Source: Akkermansia muciniphila (lineage in GTDB: Bacteria; Verrucomicrobiota; Verrucomicrobiia; Verrucomicrobiales; Akkermansiaceae). From it: a stretch of DNA of 64,000 nucleotides. Each line of letters opens with the position of its first letter. The first letter of the stretch is position 1. The notes under the pieces are model-generated. The model saw nothing but the letters and a program-made list of their open reading frames with translations, did no database searches and was not told the DNA's origin. Below, in pieces: positions 14,315 to 26,171 of this stretch. The stretch lies in assembly GCA_947624785.1 (NCBI GenBank), contig CANQLV010000005.1, positions 160,978-224,977 on the forward strand. Reading direction: 5' to 3'. A program made the position numbers and the translations under genes.

Positions 14315-15277
14315 TTATTTACCGGAGGAAAGGTTTGCTTCCGGTTTGGGCTTGAGCAGGCAGTCGTAAAACGGGGTATAAAGCAGGTTGTTGGGAATCA
14401 GGTAGATATATCCTTCCCTGGAATCATAGACCATATTGAACCGTTTCAGCAGGTTATTGCCCATAACGCCGTCCATTTCCGCGCTGCTCTGGGTGCCTCC
14501 CGTGACGGTGGAAAAAGCGCCGGGAATGAGGGGAAGCTTGCAGTCGCCGAGTTGAATACTGTCGAAAAGGACGTTTTCCAGAACTCCGGTATTGGGGTCC
14601 GAGCTGGAAATGCGGGAAATGGAAAACGGAGTCTGGCTTCCCAGCAAATGATGTTTTTTCACGAAGGGGGTGTTCAGGTCCAGAACACGGTCGGAGCCGG
14701 TATCCACGGATAAGCGGAGCTGGTGGGTTTTCCCGTTGACCGTCACCTGTCCGGGGACGACGGGAATTCCCATTACGTATTCAATCTTCAGGCGGATGGC
14801 GTGGGGAGGGGGAGTATAGGAACCGTGCGGGTACAGGTAAATTTTCCGGTCCGTGTAATTCACCTCCGTGACCTGCTGTTGGATAAACCACAGCCCCAGC
14901 ACGCCGTCCCACTGGTCCGGCGAGTAGGGAATGGCAATAAAGGGGACATGCTCCATGGATTGCCCGCCGATGGAAAATTTGTTTTCCGTGCTTTTGCGGA
15001 CTTCTCCGGACCCCGTAGCGCCGTGGTTGACGACGGTTTCATTGAACTCCATGGGAATTCCCTTCAGGGAATTGGTGCTGATGACCATGGCGGTAGCCCC
15101 CGTATCAAAAAGGAAACGCAGGGGATGGCTGCCGTTGACGCGCCCGTTCACGTAAATGCGGCTGGCAGTGCCCAGTTCAAAGGGAATGCTTGCAGCAGGA
15201 GTATTTTCGCCTGACACCGGAAGAGTGCACGCCATTAAAATGAAAAAAAATGTCAGGATTTTTCCCATGTATTTCAT
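14315..15277 (-). CDS. Secreted retropepsin-like aspartic protease with two DTG motifs
   Basis: About 320 aa, starting at MKYMGKILTFFFILMA, which forms a signal peptide ending near PVSGE. Two aspartic-protease signatures are present: FLFDTGATAMVIS and LSVDTGSDRVLDL, roughly 125 residues apart. A single chain could therefore fold pepsin-fashion with one Asp from each lobe, instead of as a retropepsin homodimer. Bacterial members of the gag-Asp-like clan are mostly periplasmic or cell-surface proteins of unknown substrate. The open frame extends upstream to 15310, but that prefix precedes the signal peptide and is unlikely. It sits between the polysaccharide operon and the AT-rich island, in the same direction as the island genes. 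Confidence 0.75.
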   Translation of the reverse strand: MKYMGKILTFFFILMACTLPVSGENTPAASIPFELGTASRIYVNGRVNGSHPLRFLFDTGATAMVISTNSLKGIPMEFNETVVNHGATGSGEVRKSTENKFSIGGQSMEHVPFIAIPYSPDQWDGVLGLWFIQQQVTEVNYTDRKIYLYPHGSYTPPPHAIRLKIEYVMGIPVVPGQVTVNGKTHQLRLSVDTGSDRVLDLNTPFVKKHHLLGSQTPFSISRISSSDPNTGVLENVLFDSIQLGDCKLPLIPGAFSTVTGGTQSSAEMDGVMGNNLLKRFNMVYDSREGYIYLIPNNLLYTPFYDCLLKPKPEANLSSGK

Positions 15278-15485
15278 TTTCCCGAATGGGCAGTTGTTCA
15301 ATTTTTCCAAGAGGATATGAAGAACGGCATTCCGGGATGCCTGTATATCCTCCGGTGCGCGCCGCTTATAGCAAATGCGCTATGAGGCAACAATGTAAAA
15401 TCATTTTAAATGCTAAAAACTTCAGAAGGATGTTTCTATTTGGCCGGGATGTCTTGGATAAGGCAGGTTGATCAAAAGAAGCATA

Positions 15486-18400
15486 TCAGCTATTAGAGGA
15501 ATATAGTTTCTGATGAAGAATCTTGAACACCCCGCTATTTCTCCATGCCTTTGCATTGCCGATTACATAAATGACTTCTTTAGCACGGGTTGCTGCCACA
15601 TTTAAAAGGTTGGGGGTTTTTCCTGCCCAGAAACGCGCTCCGGCTTGTTCCATTTCAGGAGCTCCAAGAACAAAAATGACTGCCTCAGCTTCTCTGCCCT
15701 GAACAGTATGAACTGTTCCTATGTGTTCCTGGGACCACTGATAGGAATCGTGAACCCATCCTTTCAGGACGGAAGAGTTCTCCAATAAAGAGCGTAACCC
15801 ATTCTGCACATCGACAAAGGGGGTGATGATATATAAATCCGGTTCGCATCCTCCATTTCTTATGGTTTGCAAAAGGCGGATGACATGTTGTCCTTCCTCT
15901 CTGGACCATTTGCCGTCGGCACTCCCTTCCACATGAATCCAGCGTGAAGGACCTGCTGCTTGAATGATGGAGGAAGGTCCGGGAACTTTGCCTTGTACCA
16001 TCATATTGTCGTAGGCGACCGCATTGGAGATGGAGAACATGGGCTCGGCGCACCTGCGATGGACAAGAAGAGGTACTCCGACTTCTCTCGTTCCATCAGG
16101 TGTTTCAAAGCGTCCGATATAAGTTGTCGTCCGGTCCGCGAGAGTTTGAGCAGAAGCTTCCGGAGCATTGTAAATATTGGCGTTAACGCCAAAATGATTG
16201 CATATGGTTCTGGTCAGGTGATCAGGTAATACGACAATCGGTTCAATTTGCATTGGATCCCCAACGATGACGGCACGTTTGGAACGCAGCAGCGCTCCTA
16301 CAGCCGCCTGTGGAAGGGCCTGCCCGGCTTCATCAATGAGAAGCCATCCAAGTTCTTTTTTTGCTACCCCGGCAAACATGGCGCTGAAGGAAGCGAATGT
16401 CGTGGAGACCACGGGGACAATGAGAAATAAAGTCGCCCATAAATCGTTGATGAGAGTATCCTTTTCAGAGGGTCCAAGAGATTTGTTGCCGGAATTGTCA
16501 AAAAATGCACAGCAATTGTGGCGTATTTGTTTTGCGGCTCCGTCAATGAAGGCTTTGTGAAGCATCATGGAGGCTTCATAAAGGTCTCCCCGCAGACGTG
16601 TTATCCGGGAGTCTAACCAGGGAACACTTGTCTGGCGTTGTTCATGAGACTGGGAGAAGTAGTCTGCATCAATAAAAGTTCCGGTATGTTTCCGGGTATA
16701 CTCGGAGTAATGTTGAGTCTTATCGTTTTTTTGATCGGAAAGATGGTTCAGTGTTTCTTCTTCCTCCAATATCCTTTTTTTCAAAGAAGTTCGTTGTTCC
16801 TTCAGATGAAGAAGTTGCTCGTTCGACTGGCTAAGGTCCTTTTCTGCAGATTGAAATGTCTTTTCCGCGATGGAGGTGGCATGTGACCATTCCCGGTAAA
16901 TGGAAGGGAAAAATAAACGGCGGAAAAATCCCGGTTTCCGGGCTCTAAGTTCATTGTATTTCAGCGTTAAATCATGCAAGGAAAGCTGTTTCCGGGTAAT
17001 ATCCTGTTCTTTCCGTTTAAATGTTTCTTCCAGTTGTTGATGTTCCTCTGTTAATTGAAATAAGTTTTTTTCATGTTCCTTTATTTCCTCAACATGCCAA
17101 CAAATTTCACTGTACAGGTCGTGAATAGTTTGCAACCGGGAGAGTTCTTTATCTACTACCTTGAGGATTTCAAGAAAATGCTGTCTGGCCTTATGCCACC
17201 GTTTCAGTGCTTCTTCATGATCTTTGGGGGCGTCTTCTTGCTCAATAATGGGAGCAACACATGTTGTGTCTGTCCCATTGTCATTGGAAAGACTACCTAT
17301 GTACCTGAGATATGTCTGTAATCCGTAATTTTTATCCCACCAAAATTGCTCCCGGAAATGAAAGCGATTGGACGATTTTCCAAGTGCAGCGCTAATGATA
17401 CCCCATGTTTTTCTGGAAAACAGGGCATCGGATATCGTGGAAAAGTATCCTTTTGGAAAACATTCTTCTGCTACTGCATTGCGTCCCGGCAATTCCTGGC
17501 TAATGTTTTCTACCGCCTTGTTATTGGAAGAGGCGATGACGATTTCGAAACCCTTCAATTTAGGTGAAAGAGAGTATAGGTAGAGACAAGCACTGCCTCT
17601 TTTCACCTTTTCACCAGAATACTTGAAGGCGTCTTCAGGATCGTTAAAGTCAGCCATCGCCTTGGCTCTTTCAAAGACGATGCCTGCGATGATATCCCGG
17701 AGCAAGGTGGTTTTCCCTGTTCCCGGTGGTCCATTTACGGCGAGGATGCCTCCATTTTGTAATTCAGAGAGGGCGATGTTGACAGCACATTGTTGAAGTG
17801 GCGCTAGGGAATGCCGTCCCTGGCCGGGCCATGCAGCCAATGGGAATAGAAATGGAGAAAGGATTTGCCTGACGGCGGAAGGGTCGTGCAGGAGATCCCA
17901 ACGCTCAAGGGGCGGCAACATTCCGAGATAGCGTCTCAGATTATCCGGAAGCCTTTTTTTCTGTGACAACCGTTTGGCCCAGTCGAGGTCCTTAAGAAAA
18001 AATGAGTTGAGTAAAGGAGGTTCCGGGGCTTCTTTGAGCTGGTTCCACTGGTACATGCGCAGGATAAAGGATGGTTCCTTCACTAAAGCCCTGTCCAGGC
18101 TGAGGGTGGTGACCAGCCAGCTGTAAGCGTCCATGATATCGGATGAATGAAGAGGCTGCAAGTTCCCGTCCTCATCCCTTCTGCTTAATCTGGAGGTAAG
18201 TTTGTTGATGAGGTTCTCCTCGGCCAGCGGCCACTGCTCCAGACGGCGTAAATCACCTTTTAACGCGATGGGAACACCCCATCCAAAACTGGAAATGGCG
18301 ATAGAATTCTGCCCTGCAATTTTTCCTGTTACGTCTACAATGACGCTGGCTAGTATTGCTTCCCCTGAAGGGGACGGCCGTTGTTCCCGGGAGTCTGAAT

Positions 18401-18761
18401 AAACGTTAAGCAGTTCTTTCACGGCTCCCACCATGGAGATGGAGCCGAGAATAATTTGGTAATAAATCCGGTAGCCCGGTCGGAAATTTTTGTCTTTATA
18501 TTCCCAGGGTAGGAACCGGTCTTTAAACCGGATAACATTTTTAGAGTTTCCATCACATAAACTCTCCGGTTTACGGAAAGTCATGGGAGATAAGACCTCC
18601 ATGGCGATCCAGGAGTTGAGTACAGCTTCTGAAGGAGAAAATTCGCGATCAGCATCTGTGAGCGGAGTTCTTTCCAACGTCATGGTGTTGACGTGGGGAT
18701 GGTCGGGACTGGAATTTTTTTCTTCCACGTGCTCTTCCTTGTTTACTTGTTGAACCTCCAT
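15486..18761 (-). CDS. UPF1-like superfamily 1 helicase (AAA_11/AAA_12)
   Basis: 1091-aa SF1 helicase. About 330 N-terminal residues match no domain I recognise. Walker A is GPPGTGKT (344-351). A charged coiled-coil insertion follows at about 540-690, then a DEAG Walker B (LLIDEAGQALPQ) near 810, motif V VHTVQGREAE near 1015 and motif VI TRAKEVIYVIGN near 1063. The core is the DNA2/NAM7/UPF1 group, which unwinds or translocates on DNA or RNA. Base composition is much more AT-rich than the flanks. It lies downstream of the STAND NTPase on the same strand, and its ATG overlaps the stop of a damaged small reading frame (TAATG). Large helicases of this type are frequent in antiphage islands; role here is inferred. 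Confidence 0.85.
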   Translation of the reverse strand: MEVQQVNKEEHVEEKNSSPDHPHVNTMTLERTPLTDADREFSPSEAVLNSWIAMEVLSPMTFRKPESLCDGNSKNVIRFKDRFLPWEYKDKNFRPGYRIYYQIILGSISMVGAVKELLNVYSDSREQRPSPSGEAILASVIVDVTGKIAGQNSIAISSFGWGVPIALKGDLRRLEQWPLAEENLINKLTSRLSRRDEDGNLQPLHSSDIMDAYSWLVTTLSLDRALVKEPSFILRMYQWNQLKEAPEPPLLNSFFLKDLDWAKRLSQKKRLPDNLRRYLGMLPPLERWDLLHDPSAVRQILSPFLFPLAAWPGQGRHSLAPLQQCAVNIALSELQNGGILAVNGPPGTGKTTLLRDIIAGIVFERAKAMADFNDPEDAFKYSGEKVKRGSACLYLYSLSPKLKGFEIVIASSNNKAVENISQELPGRNAVAEECFPKGYFSTISDALFSRKTWGIISAALGKSSNRFHFREQFWWDKNYGLQTYLRYIGSLSNDNGTDTTCVAPIIEQEDAPKDHEEALKRWHKARQHFLEILKVVDKELSRLQTIHDLYSEICWHVEEIKEHEKNLFQLTEEHQQLEETFKRKEQDITRKQLSLHDLTLKYNELRARKPGFFRRLFFPSIYREWSHATSIAEKTFQSAEKDLSQSNEQLLHLKEQRTSLKKRILEEEETLNHLSDQKNDKTQHYSEYTRKHTGTFIDADYFSQSHEQRQTSVPWLDSRITRLRGDLYEASMMLHKAFIDGAAKQIRHNCCAFFDNSGNKSLGPSEKDTLINDLWATLFLIVPVVSTTFASFSAMFAGVAKKELGWLLIDEAGQALPQAAVGALLRSKRAVIVGDPMQIEPIVVLPDHLTRTICNHFGVNANIYNAPEASAQTLADRTTTYIGRFETPDGTREVGVPLLVHRRCAEPMFSISNAVAYDNMMVQGKVPGPSSIIQAAGPSRWIHVEGSADGKWSREEGQHVIRLLQTIRNGGCEPDLYIITPFVDVQNGLRSLLENSSVLKGWVHDSYQWSQEHIGTVHTVQGREAEAVIFVLGAPEMEQAGARFWAGKTPNLLNVAATRAKEVIYVIGNAKAWRNSGVFKILHQKLYSSNS

Positions 18762-19097
18762 TATTTTTTCCTTTGAAGACGGAGTAGCTTCCTGCTTTGA
18801 TTCTGTTCCCTGAAAGTTGAAAAAGAAGTCTGGACCGTGCTTTTCTTTTCCAGTCCGTCGGTAGGTTTGGAGACTGCGTCAATGCACTTGTTCAGTCTTC
18901 AGCTCTGGGAGTGGTCCTGTATGTCAATTCTTCTTCCAGCATGTTGAGAAGATGGGATCGGTGGATTCTGCCTCAAACACCTTTTCCGGTTTTCCTATTT
19001 TTTTCTTAAAAATGGTTTGTCTTTCGTGACTGCACGTGTTGGATATTTGATGATAGGCGATTTATTGTAAATCAAATAACTTTGTTGATGATGTCAT
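18761..19097 (-). pseudogene. Probable broken small gene between NTPase and helicase
   Basis: No single frame spans this 337-bp gap, but three successive minus-strand frames read like one protein of about 105 residues. The first begins with a possible TTG at 19075 and contains SPIIKYPTRAVTKDKPFLRK and KVFEAESTDPIFST. The second, around 18942-18893, reads MLEEELTYRTTPRAED. The third reads CIDAVSKPTDGLEKKSTVQ and ends in TAA overlapping the helicase ATG. A further ATG at 19097, next to the NTPase stop, could be the original start. Joining them needs at least two frameshifts. It could be real decay, sequencing indels or chance. I recognise no family. Confidence 0.35.
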
Positions 19098-19098
19098 C

Positions 19099-22000
19099 TT
19101 ATGTCCGTTCAAAGGTATTGTACCAATCATCCAGATTTACATGCTTTTTCTGCAAGTGTTCAATGATGGCAAGAGACCGGTGTAAAAACTGTCCCTGATC
19201 AGATATTTCTCTGTTTTCTCCCTCCTTGAAAAGTTCCGTAATAACGGTAAGGATTTCAGAACCATAAAAGTACTGCCAATTTTCAGCGACTGTATTTTGG
19301 GATAAAATTTCCATTATTTCCAGGATATCATCTATATGATTGGGCGCCGCCTTTGCCATCCATGAAAAGAAGGAATGGTCCTTGATGCACATGGAAGGTT
19401 TTTTCTCCAGGATTATTTTTGCTAATTGGATGAGAGTGTGATCTTGAATCTCGGATGAACAAAATGTATGGATCAGAGTTGTTTCTCTGATTAACGCCTC
19501 TTTCTTTGAATCTAAAATAAATCTGATTTCTTCCAGACATTTATTGATGATATTTTTGCTTTCAGCGTCATGGCGATCTTCTAAGTTGGAAAGATATACA
19601 TTTAAAGCGCCTTTCCATGAGGTGTCTGTCCGGGCAGACTTCAGCTCTTCTTCAAAAATTTCTTTGGTAATTTTATTGGCTAGATAACATAAAGCCTCCA
19701 ATTGACCCCAGTTTTTCCCGATAGAGTCACTTTGAGATGCATGCATGGTCCTCAGATGAGGTATTACTAAATCAATTTCTTTGTGATAACAGTAATAGAG
19801 GTAACGGTAAACTTCATGTGTCCCGTATAGTTGTTCATCTGTAACTATTTCATTGAATAATTCCCATGCCATTTCCCGGTTATCATTCAATAACGGAAGC
19901 ATCCTATCTATGTAGAATGTTTTGACTGACAGATTTTCCATCACGGTAAAATCTCTGAGCAATTGCATGTGCTCGGAAGAGATTCCTTTCCCTCGTTTTT
20001 TTTCAAAAAGAGTGAAGGCTGCCTGGATTGTCGATCCTATGGGAGAATTCAACACTCTTCCTGTGTCGATTTTTTCTATCTCTTCCACATATTGATCAAC
20101 GTAATTGATAAATCTTTTTAAGTAGTTGATGATTTCCTGATACATCTTTTCATCTTCAAAAACGATCAGGGAACTGGCTTCCAACGCTGAAGCGATAGTT
20201 CTTTCACTGAAATCCGCCGTTTTTTTAATTAAAGATAAAATTGTATTCGCTATTCCCTGTGCCTCTGGTTTTTCTTTGGCTTCCCACTTGTCTGCTCTTA
20301 TATGACCATATAGGTAATGAAGATGGTCTGCAAGACCCCCTAAAACAGCGTTATGAATTTGATCATCCAGTTCCGTCCAATGCTTTTTCCATAGGTAGTC
20401 AAATTGTGTGGGAGCCATGCTAATAGCTTTCTGCAATTGATATTGAATGTGGGGATCTTCATGATCTAAGTGGTATGTTTGATAATTTATGTCATGAAAA
20501 TGTTTCAGTACTCGTAAAACTTCGTTTTCAGAAAAACACAGGAAACGTTCAGTAGGGACGGCTGAAGGAACATACCCTCCCGATATTCGGTCTGCATCGG
20601 CAGGAAGGCAGAGGTGTAGGGAGATACCTCCCCGTTTAGCTATATCGATGAAGGTAATAATTTTTTGTGTTTTCCATGGTTGGGGGATGATGTCGAGAAA
20701 TGTAAGAACTCTTTCTTTTTGCCATGGATCATCACTATTTTGATAAGTGTCGAAAAGTGGATCAATAATGGAAGATAGTTCTGCTTCATCGAGATATGGA
20801 GCGATTTGTTTTAATAATTGACTGGATTCATGAAGGAAGAAAAAATGTTTCTGGGTAATAAAATATCTGATGATTTGCTTGCTTTCCGTCAAATACTTTT
20901 CTGGATTAATTAGTAATGAGGAAATTACAATAAACATGAGAGCCGGATTTTTATCGACTGCCTGCATGAGATCTGGAAGTTTTTTTATCCACCATTCTCC
21001 CCCTTGTGCACTTTGCTCCACGCACGCTTTTCTGACCAGTATGATAAAAACGGAAAAGTTTTTTTCGTGGCTCATAAGAGTCAGATCTCCATACTCTGAA
21101 AGGCAATAATCAATGAATTCCTTGTCATCTTTTCCGGAATCATATAAATAATTTACCCATTGAATGATATGGTCCAGGCACTTTCCTAGTAAGCAGGAAG
21201 ATGATTTGATGGCGTTTTCCAGAAAATCGTGATTCTTTGAAAAATGCATCCCTGAGCACCTTAAGCTTTTTTGCAGTGTTTCGAGACATTCCGGAAGGTG
21301 ATGGTCATAGCCGTTTGCTATCCATGAGAAAAGTAAATCATCATATTTTTCTGTTTCTTCCTTGGGCATCTTCATCAAGATCCGTTCAACAGGGAAGGAT
21401 ACATATTCGTCTTGATAATGATGGCTTAAAATATTTTTTAGAAGGGGAAATGTTTCATTAATATTGGCGATATCATGTTTTTCAAGAGAAGAAATAATAT
21501 CTTTTTTCAAGCTTTCATGATCGGGCCAGGAGAATTCCAGTACGCTTAACCAAAAATCAGTAATTTCCTTTGGATGAGACTCATAAAATTCACTGGCTTG
21601 ATGGACCATCCATCCGAGCCAGTTTTCATTCTCTGACTGGCAAATCGCATCAAACCAGTCTTTTCTCAAAAATAGGAACCATTCGTATTGCTTGATGTTT
21701 CTGAAGAACAGCAAAAACAACTCATTTTTTGACTGGAACAGGTAACGAACCAGTGCTTGATCATCGGGTTCCGGAATGACCTCTGCAAGAGAAGAAACCA
21801 TCAGCCTTTTCAAATGGAAGGCGACTTGGTTGGAATCCAGAAGTCCTCTTAATTCCTGTCGGAATTGTTCAGGGTTATGACTCCTGAGGTAAAAGAAGTA
21901 TGTTCTGACAATGGGCCGTACAAAGGGAACAGGAGGCAGTTCTCCTGCGTATGCAGACAACGTTTTTCCTTGCCGGATGGCGTTCCTTACCAAAATGAGA

Positions 22001-23694
22001 TCCAGATAGGTTTGATGGCCGAATCTTAACTTGGAATATCCCGATTTCTCGAGAATATGGAGGCTTTGCAAAATACGAATATCTTCCCCCTGCAATTTCG
22101 TTTCCTCTTCCATGATTTCCATTCTGTGACGGTCCAGCATTCTCAGCGCAATCTCATGAAGAGATTTTTCGATTTGTTTGCGGGAAGGTTCTCCCATTTT
22201 TTCATTCAGGGAAAACTTCAAATATCCGGACAGAAGGTCGATGTCATTCGATTGAGTAGGGACCATTCCCTGCTGACGAAGTTCATGATAGATCCAAAGC
22301 ATGCAGGGTGATGAAAGGAGACATTTCTGTCTGTCACCCACTTGAGAGGCATTCCAGCCCCATTTTTCAAAAAGCGGAACAATCTCCTCCTTCCAGTCCC
22401 AGGGTTTTACAGAGATACGTTTTTCCCAGGGGATAGCCCGTAGACGAGAGTCATAGGCAGCATCAAACGTTCTACAGGAAGCGACGATAAAAATATTGGG
22501 GATATTTCTAAGTTGATCAATCAGGGCGGAAAAGTATCTGAAAGCAACGCCGCCCGTTGAGATGGCGATGACGTCAAGAGAATCCATGGCAACGACGACA
22601 GGATGCCATTCAGCAAACCGGGCTATTTTTCGAAAAAGGTCGTGATCCAGTTCCTGGGATATCCTGCCTGCGTCGTTCCCGATGCCGTCAAATTCCTTGG
22701 TTTGAAGGTAGATGACGTTGTATGAAGTGTCTGGATCTTGTTCCAGCTGATCGACAAGATTAAGGAGAACGCAACTTTTTCCGGCGCCAGGTCCTCCTTC
22801 AAGCAATATGGTCTTGTTTCCGGCATCAAGATGCTGAAGAATTTCTTTCACTTCCGGCCGAGGAATTCTTTCCCCTCCTATTTCCCTGAGAAAGCTACTT
22901 CGGCCGATGGCAGAAATTCTCTGGATCTCTTCTCTCAGAATTTCTACGGGATACCGGGGTGCTAAACAAATACCGTTCCGTACGAATTTTTCCAGCACAT
23001 CCTGGCGGGTGATGAAGGAAGAGTCGGTACATCTTGATTCCAATCCAATTTTTTTCTCCCGGGCGTTGGCCTTTGCAATCAGCTCCAGCACTGCGTCCAG
23101 AGCTGCATCCGCATTGGTCGCTATGGAAGAAAGGTGTAGGAGGGTACATTTCCTGATAATTTCCTGTTCAATGGTTCTGAAGAAAAGCGTTTTTAAGAAT
23201 TTCCAAAGTTCGGTGTCTTCTTCCTGAACATCCAGGACTTCTTTCAATTTTTGATAAATGGCGTTTATTGTTGCATTGTTATCGATGGCGGTGTGGATGA
23301 GTGATTGTACATCGGGATAGGAACGGGATTCTTCCGCCAGTTTTCCCAAGTCACCGAATCCGTCTTGACAATAAAAATCAATGGATTCGATATCATCAGC
23401 TCTTTTGAAGAGGTTCCATGCCTTCTTCAGTTCTGCCCCCAATCCGTGGATAGTCCAATCCCTGCGGGCTGTCTGGTTTTTTTTACACTGGCAGTAGGTT
23501 TTTCTACCTGATTCATAATGAATAATAAAGTCTTCTACTTCTATTGGGCCGCCATCCAGGACGCGTGTTGATTCAATTTCCATCCGGACGATTTTTTGTC
23601 CGCTCTTTTCATCCATCATCTCGGCAATATATTGGGCGACCAGCAAATTCTGGTATCTGTCACCCTTATGAGATTCAACTGCGCTTCTACTCAT
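19099..23694 (-). CDS. Avs-like STAND NTPase with N-terminal PD-(D/E)xK nuclease domain
   Basis: 1531 aa from the ATG at 23694. N-terminal residues 1-110 look like a Cap4/Mrr-type restriction-endonuclease fold: GDRYQNLLVAQY, acidic E54/D55, then Q69-C70-K71 in place of (D/E)xK. A P-loop follows (GGPGAGKS, 300-307), then Walker B (VVVAMDSLD, about 366-374) and a sensor-like SCRTFD near 406. The remaining roughly 1000 residues are helical repeat-like with no signature I can name. This order (nuclease, STAND NTPase, long repeat sensor) is that of Avs proteins, which recognise phage proteins and activate the effector. The frame is open to a GTG at 23790, but that lies in a terminator hairpin. AT-rich relative to flanks; followed by a broken small gene and a helicase. 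Confidence 0.82.
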   Translation of the reverse strand: MSRSAVESHKGDRYQNLLVAQYIAEMMDEKSGQKIVRMEIESTRVLDGGPIEVEDFIIHYESGRKTYCQCKKNQTARRDWTIHGLGAELKKAWNLFKRADDIESIDFYCQDGFGDLGKLAEESRSYPDVQSLIHTAIDNNATINAIYQKLKEVLDVQEEDTELWKFLKTLFFRTIEQEIIRKCTLLHLSSIATNADAALDAVLELIAKANAREKKIGLESRCTDSSFITRQDVLEKFVRNGICLAPRYPVEILREEIQRISAIGRSSFLREIGGERIPRPEVKEILQHLDAGNKTILLEGGPGAGKSCVLLNLVDQLEQDPDTSYNVIYLQTKEFDGIGNDAGRISQELDHDLFRKIARFAEWHPVVVAMDSLDVIAISTGGVAFRYFSALIDQLRNIPNIFIVASCRTFDAAYDSRLRAIPWEKRISVKPWDWKEEIVPLFEKWGWNASQVGDRQKCLLSSPCMLWIYHELRQQGMVPTQSNDIDLLSGYLKFSLNEKMGEPSRKQIEKSLHEIALRMLDRHRMEIMEEETKLQGEDIRILQSLHILEKSGYSKLRFGHQTYLDLILVRNAIRQGKTLSAYAGELPPVPFVRPIVRTYFFYLRSHNPEQFRQELRGLLDSNQVAFHLKRLMVSSLAEVIPEPDDQALVRYLFQSKNELFLLFFRNIKQYEWFLFLRKDWFDAICQSENENWLGWMVHQASEFYESHPKEITDFWLSVLEFSWPDHESLKKDIISSLEKHDIANINETFPLLKNILSHHYQDEYVSFPVERILMKMPKEETEKYDDLLFSWIANGYDHHLPECLETLQKSLRCSGMHFSKNHDFLENAIKSSSCLLGKCLDHIIQWVNYLYDSGKDDKEFIDYCLSEYGDLTLMSHEKNFSVFIILVRKACVEQSAQGGEWWIKKLPDLMQAVDKNPALMFIVISSLLINPEKYLTESKQIIRYFITQKHFFFLHESSQLLKQIAPYLDEAELSSIIDPLFDTYQNSDDPWQKERVLTFLDIIPQPWKTQKIITFIDIAKRGGISLHLCLPADADRISGGYVPSAVPTERFLCFSENEVLRVLKHFHDINYQTYHLDHEDPHIQYQLQKAISMAPTQFDYLWKKHWTELDDQIHNAVLGGLADHLHYLYGHIRADKWEAKEKPEAQGIANTILSLIKKTADFSERTIASALEASSLIVFEDEKMYQEIINYLKRFINYVDQYVEEIEKIDTGRVLNSPIGSTIQAAFTLFEKKRGKGISSEHMQLLRDFTVMENLSVKTFYIDRMLPLLNDNREMAWELFNEIVTDEQLYGTHEVYRYLYYCYHKEIDLVIPHLRTMHASQSDSIGKNWGQLEALCYLANKITKEIFEEELKSARTDTSWKGALNVYLSNLEDRHDAESKNIINKCLEEIRFILDSKKEALIRETTLIHTFCSSEIQDHTLIQLAKIILEKKPSMCIKDHSFFSWMAKAAPNHIDDILEIMEILSQNTVAENWQYFYGSEILTVITELFKEGENREISDQGQFLHRSLAIIEHLQKKHVNLDDWYNTFERT

Positions 23695-23765
23695 TGTTTT
23701 CCAATATTTTCTATACGCAATCTTCCTGATCAACAAAAAGGAATCAATATAATTCTGTTTTTCCC

Positions 23766-23795
23766 AAAAAAGCCGTGGCTTGTTCGCCACGGCTT
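23766..23795 (-). terminator. Intrinsic terminator between leader and Avs-like gene
   Basis: A perfect 10-bp stem (AAGCCGTGGC at 23770-23779 against its complement at 23786-23795) with a 6-nt loop, followed on the minus strand by a run of six T. It ends transcription coming from the tail-collar side about 70 bp before the ATG of the NTPase. It could end the tail transcript or attenuate NTPase expression. Confidence 0.75.
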
Positions 23796-24047
23796 GAAGA
23801 ACGGATTAGTTATTCCGCATCACAGGTTTAGACCTTTTCAAATGGTTGTTGCCATTGCCTGTTTTCCGTGTGTTGCTGCTTCATTTCCGGTTCCTCTCTT
23901 GGATCCATGGGATGGGCAATAGCCAAAGGTATTCTAGTCGTCATCACGGATGCACTGATATGATGGGGGCGTCAGCATGCTGACAACTTCAGTATGTTGT
24001 TCCATCTTCTCGTGTGAACTGTACTTTTATGCGAGACGTTTATGGAT
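23769..24047 (-). other. Non-coding leader of the Avs-like gene, possible small RNA
   Basis: This stretch between the tail-collar gene and the NTPase has no plausible ORF on either strand. It starts at the predicted start site of an extended -10 promoter and ends in the intrinsic terminator. Inside is a perfect 14-bp palindrome GTCAGCATGCTGAC (23971-23984), and beside it an inverted repeat ACAAC/GTTGT. A terminated transcript of about 280 nt is predicted. It may be an attenuator leader, a regulatory RNA or simply the 3' region of the tail transcript. Confidence 0.35.
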
Positions 24048-24053
24048 GAAACG

Positions 24054-24062
24054 ATTATAGCA
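24054..24062 (-). promoter_or_regulatory. Extended -10 promoter facing the Avs-like gene
   Basis: The minus strand reads TGCTATAAT, a perfect extended -10 element, preceded by nine consecutive T and an AT-rich tract. No convincing -35 is needed or seen. Transcription would start near 24047 and run through the leader and its terminator into the NTPase gene. Confidence 0.5.
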
Positions 24063-24086
24063 AAAAAAAATCTTATATTTTTTATA

Positions 24087-24845
24087 TTAGTATTTGATAA
24101 TAGGCATTAAAGCCATGTTGACGGGGCGGTTTTCGTCAGCCGTCGGAACAGAGTCGGATGCATCAAAAATTAGGTTGCCGGTATATTGGGCGGAGTAGTC
24201 CGCATGACCAGTATATCTTTGGTTGCTCCCTTTCGTTTTTGAAAACACACCAGCTCCTCCTGTCGAATTAGCTTGAATATACGTAAATAAGTTTCCTGTA
24301 ATATTACGGATAGCATCTCCCTGAATGCTGCCTATAGTTCTCTCTGTAGAAGTGGAACGGATGAACAATCCGTTGTCTTTTGTCAAGTCGGGAAGGGCAA
24401 AGGTCGTGACGCCGTCGCCGCCGTAGATGATGCTGATCGCCGCGTATAGTTCCGGGTATTGGCTGATTTGGAGAATGGTCCCGTTGCATTCCAGCCATCC
24501 GTCCGGCGCTACGCTGCCGCAAAACCACATGAAACAGCCCGGGGCCACACTGGAACCGCACGGACCTGCCGGGCCTGCCGGGCCTGTTTCTCCTTTGTCT
24601 CCCTTGTCCCCTTTGGGGCCTTGTGGACCGGGAAGCCCCTGGATGCCGGGTTCTCCTTTGGGGCCTTGGGGGCCTTCCGGTCCCGGGGCTCCCGGGTCAC
24701 CCTTGTCTCCTTTAGGTCCTTGGCCGCCTGAGTTCCATTTTTCCTTTTCCTGTGCCGTGACGTGAATGCTTGCGTTTCCTGCGTGAGCGGAAAATTCATT
24801 CTGCGTGGCCATCAGGATTCCGTTAATCGTGATCATCTCATTCAT
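24087..24845 (-). CDS. Phage tail-collar protein with collagen-like Gly-X-Y repeats
   Basis: 252 aa in three parts. Residues 1-38 form a leader containing [17 protein letters not shown]. About 18 uninterrupted collagen-type triplets follow ([12 protein letters not shown] and similar, roughly residues 42-95). Then comes a tail-collar domain with [20 protein letters not shown] and [14 protein letters not shown], as in tail fibres of many phages. The triplets should make a trimeric rod holding the C-terminal receptor-binding part. The gene is the last of a minus-strand run with two damaged tail-module genes and a 130-aa protein, so it is most likely a prophage remnant. Only its own frame looks intact. 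Confidence 0.85.
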
Positions 24846-26094: not shown

Positions 26095-26171
26095 TGGTCG
26101 GGTTGACAGGATTCGAACCTGCGACCCCCTGCACCCCATGCAGGTGCGCTACCAGACTGCGCTACAACCCG
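26095..26171 (-). tRNA. tRNA-Pro (anticodon GGG)
   Basis: The minus strand folds as a tRNA: acceptor stem CGGGTTG (26165-26171) pairs with 26099-26105. The D-arm contains TAGCGCAGTCTGGTAGCGCA. The anticodon stem CCTGC/GCAGG encloses the loop ATGGGGT, giving anticodon GGG. The T-arm is GCAGGTTCGAATCCTGT. The discriminator A is followed by an encoded CCA (26095-26097). The 3' end faces the AT-rich island, the usual geometry of a tRNA attachment site, although I found no second copy of the 3' end. Confidence 0.96.

Follow-up and report, generated by a model that had tools for sequence, protein, structure and literature searches.

What does a gene for a nuclease joined to a nucleoside triphosphatase (NTPase) do beside a helicase gene, and do the two make one defence system or two? 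We consider this question for 64,000 nucleotides of Akkermansia muciniphila DNA (GenBank assembly GCA_947624785.1, contig CANQLV010000005.1, positions 160,978 to 224,977 of the forward strand), called the window below. Akkermansia is a genus of gut commensals, and the host genome is 3.08 Mb. An earlier note, made from the letters alone, had proposed an antiphage module here, consisting of an Avs-like nuclease-NTPase and a superfamily 1 (SF1) helicase in a prophage remnant. Our reading, which we hold with good confidence, is that of an inserted two-gene block, in which an Avs-like protein, a likely sensor of a phage protein with a predicted Cap4-fold nuclease output, is carried together with a UPF1-like helicase that likely works on its own. 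What we observe is the gene order, the fold match of modelled NTPase residues 1-590, the conserved catalytic and ATPase residues, the presence and absence of the block among genomes, and the absence of the pair from distant loci. The main features, with the lengths of the products in amino acids (aa), are as follows.

19099-23694, minus strand: Avs-like STAND NTPase, ATG start, 1531 aa (open reading frame, homologue lengths, solved homologue 9n00)
22965-23694, minus strand: predicted nuclease domain of Cap4/DUF4297 fold and PD-(D/E)xK type, covering residues 1 to about 243, with E39, D55, Q69 and K71 (model and fold matches)
21925-22964, minus strand: STAND/NACHT-type NTPase module, residues about 244-590, with Walker A 300-307, DSLDV 371-375 and H560
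19099-21924, minus strand: C-terminal region, predicted target sensor, residues 591-1531 (alignment to 9n00; identities)
15486-18761, minus strand: UPF1-like SF1 helicase of 1091 aa; two long helices are predicted to form an insertion at residues 515-691 (Pfam, PADLOC, model)
about 15195-24080: inserted block containing the NTPase and helicase genes, lacking in two sister species (alignment to L124, L125 and L127)

The nuclease-NTPase

We begin with the larger protein. The 1531-aa length and the order of nuclease and STAND NTPase that had been read from the sequence are borne out by the open reading frame, by a structure model of residues 1-590 and by Foldseek, whose top four rows for this model are Avs3 and Avs4. 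The N-terminal domain of the model finds HerA-DUF4297, Cap4, LmuA and one chain of a Hachiman complex as fold matches. Counted in 73 full-length distant relatives, D55, Q69 and K71 are each kept in 72, E39 in 67 and C70 in 66, while position 54, a glutamate in the window protein, is an aspartate in 72 of them. The domain as modelled thus combines a PD-(D/E)xK fold with the D...QxK residues of a Cap4/DUF4297-type nuclease, in agreement with the PD-(D/E)xK-like domain first suggested. The P-loop at residues 300-307 and the Walker B motif also stand, with K306 and D371 of the DSLDV motif present in 73/73 relatives, and the module has the helical and winged-helix parts that accompany Walker A and B in NLRs, the immune sensors of animals to which this protein is related.

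The remaining residues, about 940, had been described as a long region of apparent repeats. Because a solved "AAA family ATPase" of 1523 aa (PDB accession code: 9n00, 462 bits) can be aligned with the protein over its whole length, this C-terminal region is supported as a genuine part of the protein, and by analogy it is predicted to be the target sensor. An N-terminal effector, a central STAND NTPase and a long C-terminal region, here a putative sensor, together make the architecture of Avs (AVAST) proteins.

Where does the gene start? A GTG at 23790, 96 bases upstream of the ATG at 23694, would give 1563 aa. We prefer the ATG because the eight closest homologues have 1524-1531 aa, and because the GTG lies inside a palindrome with T's after it (about 23766-23795), just upstream of the gene. 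The same palindrome occurs in a sister species of the genus (G047); a terminator scan did not call it. The end coordinate given in the earlier note, 24062, is 368 bases upstream of the ATG. The ratios of nonsynonymous to synonymous change (dN/dS) against G047, 0.12-0.60 for one gene and 0.10-0.23 for the other, point to purifying selection on the NTPase and the helicase.

An unexpected pattern appears when relatives of the NTPase are compared with one another at the protein level over residues 1-270, 271-600, 601-700, 701-1200 and 1201-1531, limits that were set after a sliding identity profile had been viewed. Two pairs of relatives that are near-identical elsewhere differ by 24-36% at residues 701-1200: the identities over the five blocks are 100/99/100/64/97% for P0009 and P0010, and 99/99/98/76/89% for P0007 and P0008. 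Within residues 701-1200, P0009 and P0010 (64%) are about as distant from each other as each is from the window protein (66 and 65%). It is as if recognition blocks had been exchanged, which would give just such a divergence.

The helicase

The second gene is an exact open reading frame for the 1091-aa UPF1-like SF1 helicase that had been read on the same strand. Pfam families AAA_11, AAA_12 and Viral_helicase1 score above their cut-offs, and the best solved relatives are UPF1 and SMUBP-2. By eye, the motifs GPPGTGKT, DEAGQ, GDPMQIEP, TVHTVQGREAE and VAATRAK, which we take to be SF1 motifs, are intact. The protein is without the N-terminal residues, about 90, of its longer relatives. Its family is very large, with 3615 of 7991 scored candidates matching at E≤0.001 and 728 of 72,556 plasmid records at E≤1e-5. 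On one of these plasmids, from Xanthomonas hortorum (L121, 6689-12598), a helicase-family gene is followed by a gene annotated as a restriction endonuclease and by an NYN-domain gene.

The inserted block and its site

The order of genes along the site is argC, tRNA-Pro, a phage tail-collar gene, the NTPase, the helicase and an aspartyl protease gene. The flanking features are these.

24087-24845, minus strand: phage tail-collar protein with collagen-like repeats, on the flank of the insertion and outside it, present at both empty sites (Pfam, PHROGs)
26095-26171, minus strand: tRNA-Pro(ggg), a site of phage-derived insertions
14315-15310: retropepsin-like aspartyl protease gene, adjoining the insertion

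In G047 the gene order is the same, and the DNA of the block is about 91% identical. Two further genomes (G084 and G107) have the tRNA-Pro, the collar gene and the protease gene, and nothing between them aligns to the block. Since one species carries the same block and two have an empty site, we take the NTPase and the helicase to have been inserted as one discrete piece of about 8.9 kb. At its low end the piece reaches into the protease gene, whose start (15310) is diverged; this gene is found in 8 of 59 Akkermansia genomes at E≤1e-20. The AT-rich, phage-derived and tRNA-adjacent site that had been proposed is confirmed by a G+C content of 38-48% in the block (2-kb windows) against about 60% around it, by the collar gene and by the tRNA; the surroundings, with this gene and fragments, resemble a prophage remnant.

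The two genes are separated by 337 bases (18762-19098), of which about 145 (18870-19013), a single copy in their own genome, are missing in G047. Promoter- and terminator-like sites were found no more commonly than in shuffled sequences. In another genome (G055) the tRNA-Pro is followed by other genes that appear phage-derived by eye (L126, 1793-6952) and then by a second copy of the 3' part of the tRNA (L126, 6859-6952, 90% identical), an arrangement which suggests that a phage used tRNA-Pro as its site there. The collagen-repeat collar gene is kept beside tRNA-Pro in G047, G084, G107 and G055, with partial matches in G028; G038 has the tRNA and no match to the collar gene or the block.

One system or two?

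Do the NTPase and the helicase belong together? To answer this question we look at the loci of distant relatives, comprising for the NTPase the best 80 of 103 genomic relatives and 4 viral contigs; flanking sequence was included up to 10 kb, or less if the contig ended sooner. The helicase is near the NTPase at 0/84 of these loci (E≤1e-5), and the NTPase is near other helicases at 0/19 loci (E≤1e-3). Helicase relatives occur in 3 of 37 NTPase genomes (one helicase query, E≤1e-20), with 34-42% identity over parts of the protein. G082 and G014, two genomes within the same family, match the helicase strongly (46% and 35%), and neither is among the 4 of 195 genomes with an NTPase match. Most likely, two stand-alone defence-type genes are carried as one cassette, and the helicase likely works independently of the NTPase. 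The earlier note had left it between a separate system and an unreported partner; the former is the better reading, and the latter fares poorly at these loci. As for the pair itself, it is adjacent and on one strand in the window genome and in a single further Akkermansia species, and in none of the distant loci.

Several results weigh against our reading. Among 76 Akkermansia genomes (E≤1e-30), the NTPase occurs in two and the helicase in the same two. Relatives of the NTPase and of the helicase that are 69% identical (P0009 and P0024) are recorded with longest contigs of equal length (71,951 bases); perhaps the pair is also in a third, more diverged lineage. A joint function is possible because the two genes travel together in this way. 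Partners may have been missed, because many loci are cut by contig ends and the flanks at 5 of 19 helicase loci are no longer than about 1.5 kb. The helicase structure model is of low quality (mean predicted local distance difference test score 71.7, predicted template modelling score 0.62). The PADLOC library contains Avs models, and its Avs profiles give no match at E≤1 for the window NTPase and none at E≤0.01 for 16 relatives. By curated profile the protein therefore falls into none of the Avs types 1-5, and we name it Avs-like: the nuclease-NTPase reading of the earlier note is well borne out by fold, residue conservation and a full-length solved homologue, and it is the name Avs that calls for caution. 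Finally, the block pattern, known from the protein level alone, is not universal. P0005 and P0006 are 83/90/91/91/90% identical over the five blocks without any such pattern, the window protein and P0004 91/92/90/92/81% without a dip at 701-1200, and the window protein differs most from that of G047 at residues 1201-1500.

The strongest alternative, though still unlikely, is one lineage-specific two-component system: a helicase that senses or remodels nucleic acid would gate the nuclease-NTPase, somewhat as HamB restrains HamA in Hachiman (PMC12278908). Besides the joint carriage just described, it draws on the adjacency on one strand in two species, on the single inserted block, on the fold match of the N-terminal domain to a Hachiman complex chain, and on the missing N-terminal residues of the helicase. 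The distant loci and the few, partial helicase matches in NTPase genomes argue against it, and a single event may account for the co-presence at one site in two sister species. In an extended form, an Avs-like receptor and a UPF1-like helicase, each stand-alone before, have become one two-component immune system in Akkermansia, with the helicase licensing or restraining the nuclease and the recognition block of the receptor exchanged between alleles through recombination, as in hypervariable immune receptors; we regard it as doubtful. If the helicase were indeed a partner, the result would be a helicase-gated STAND immune protein, of which none was found among the literature matches listed; nor was a description of the NTPase-helicase pair recognised there.

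A sensor of something other than phage, e.g., damaged DNA or plasmids, whose output would be the nuclease, seems improbable. The same nuclease fold is also used in Lamassu (the LmuA match), but the architecture and the top fold matches are those of phage-protein-bound Avs3 and Avs4, and the flanking collar gene is phage-derived. That the genes are decaying, functionless cargo of a dead prophage, as the remnant-like surroundings (tail-collar gene, fragments) might suggest, is very improbable, with both long frames uninterrupted by stops, dN/dS against G047 at most 0.39 in 16 of 17 windows, and the catalytic residues kept.

Proposed mechanism

We return to the Avs-like sensor with a probably independent helicase beside it. 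By analogy, the NTPase likely responds to a phage protein by cutting DNA. During infection, that protein (the terminase or portal for Avs proteins) would bind the C-terminal region, and ATP-driven assembly through the STAND module would gather the nuclease domains. These may cut phage and host DNA and so stop the spread of the phage, as the nuclease activity of Avs1-4 cleaves both genomes once terminase or portal is recognised (PMC12931631). The helicase, a second cargo gene, would unwind or translocate on nucleic acid independently, and recombination that swaps blocks within the C-terminal region may change recognition. The locus offers an NLR-like nuclease sensor in Akkermansia, and the PDB already contains the structure of a full-length relative; the relatives with differing central blocks are natural swaps for finding the residues that choose the phage target.

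Comparison with known systems

Among known systems, the helicase resembles MkoC of Mokosh type II, its best PADLOC match (245.7 bits). Residues 315-1088 align to the helicase region of the profile (positions 245-965 of 1136), and the alignment ends before the last 171 positions. A PLD-like domain belongs to Mokosh type II (MkoC), as stated in PMC10952713; a Pfam scan at E≤0.1 finds no PLD family in the window helicase, which appears related to MkoC without a recognisable nuclease domain. Hachiman differs in both components: its helicase HamB is of superfamily 2 and the window helicase is UPF1-like SF1, while the nuclease of the window is fused to a STAND NTPase. No Ham profile in PADLOC matches the window proteins at E≤1.

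Cap4, LmuA and the HerA-linked DUF4297 nucleases, and probably HamA, share the fold and the D...QxK residues of the N-terminal domain. Their usual partners are SAVED, SMC, a helicase or HerA, unlike the fused STAND NTPase found here. The NTPase region weakly resembles the PADLOC candidate PDC-M54A (28.5 bits), with about 130 residues aligned to a profile of 1621 positions; one of the PDC-M54A profiles matches 12 of 16 members of the NTPase family. In four genes of cyanobacterial plasmids (H42-H45; L123 for H42), similarity to the NTPase and C-terminal region begins only past the nuclease part, suggesting an exchange of effector; two of the four are annotated as caspase family proteins.

The closest comparisons are with solved structures. 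Avs3 and Avs4 (PDB accession codes: 8dgc, 8dgf) have the same N-terminal nuclease, STAND NTPase and long C-terminal region, with 12-15% identity to the window protein in fold alignments, and the 21 sequences that the NTPase family profile finds include neither of them. A C-terminal sensor is also described for Avs2 (PMC12724215). A literature search for 9n00 and 9n01 did not find their title and function. The "AAA family ATPase" of 1523 aa in 9n00, 9n01 and 9yix is alike over its whole length and, with 1880.7 bits against the family profile, is a distant member of the same family as the window NTPase.

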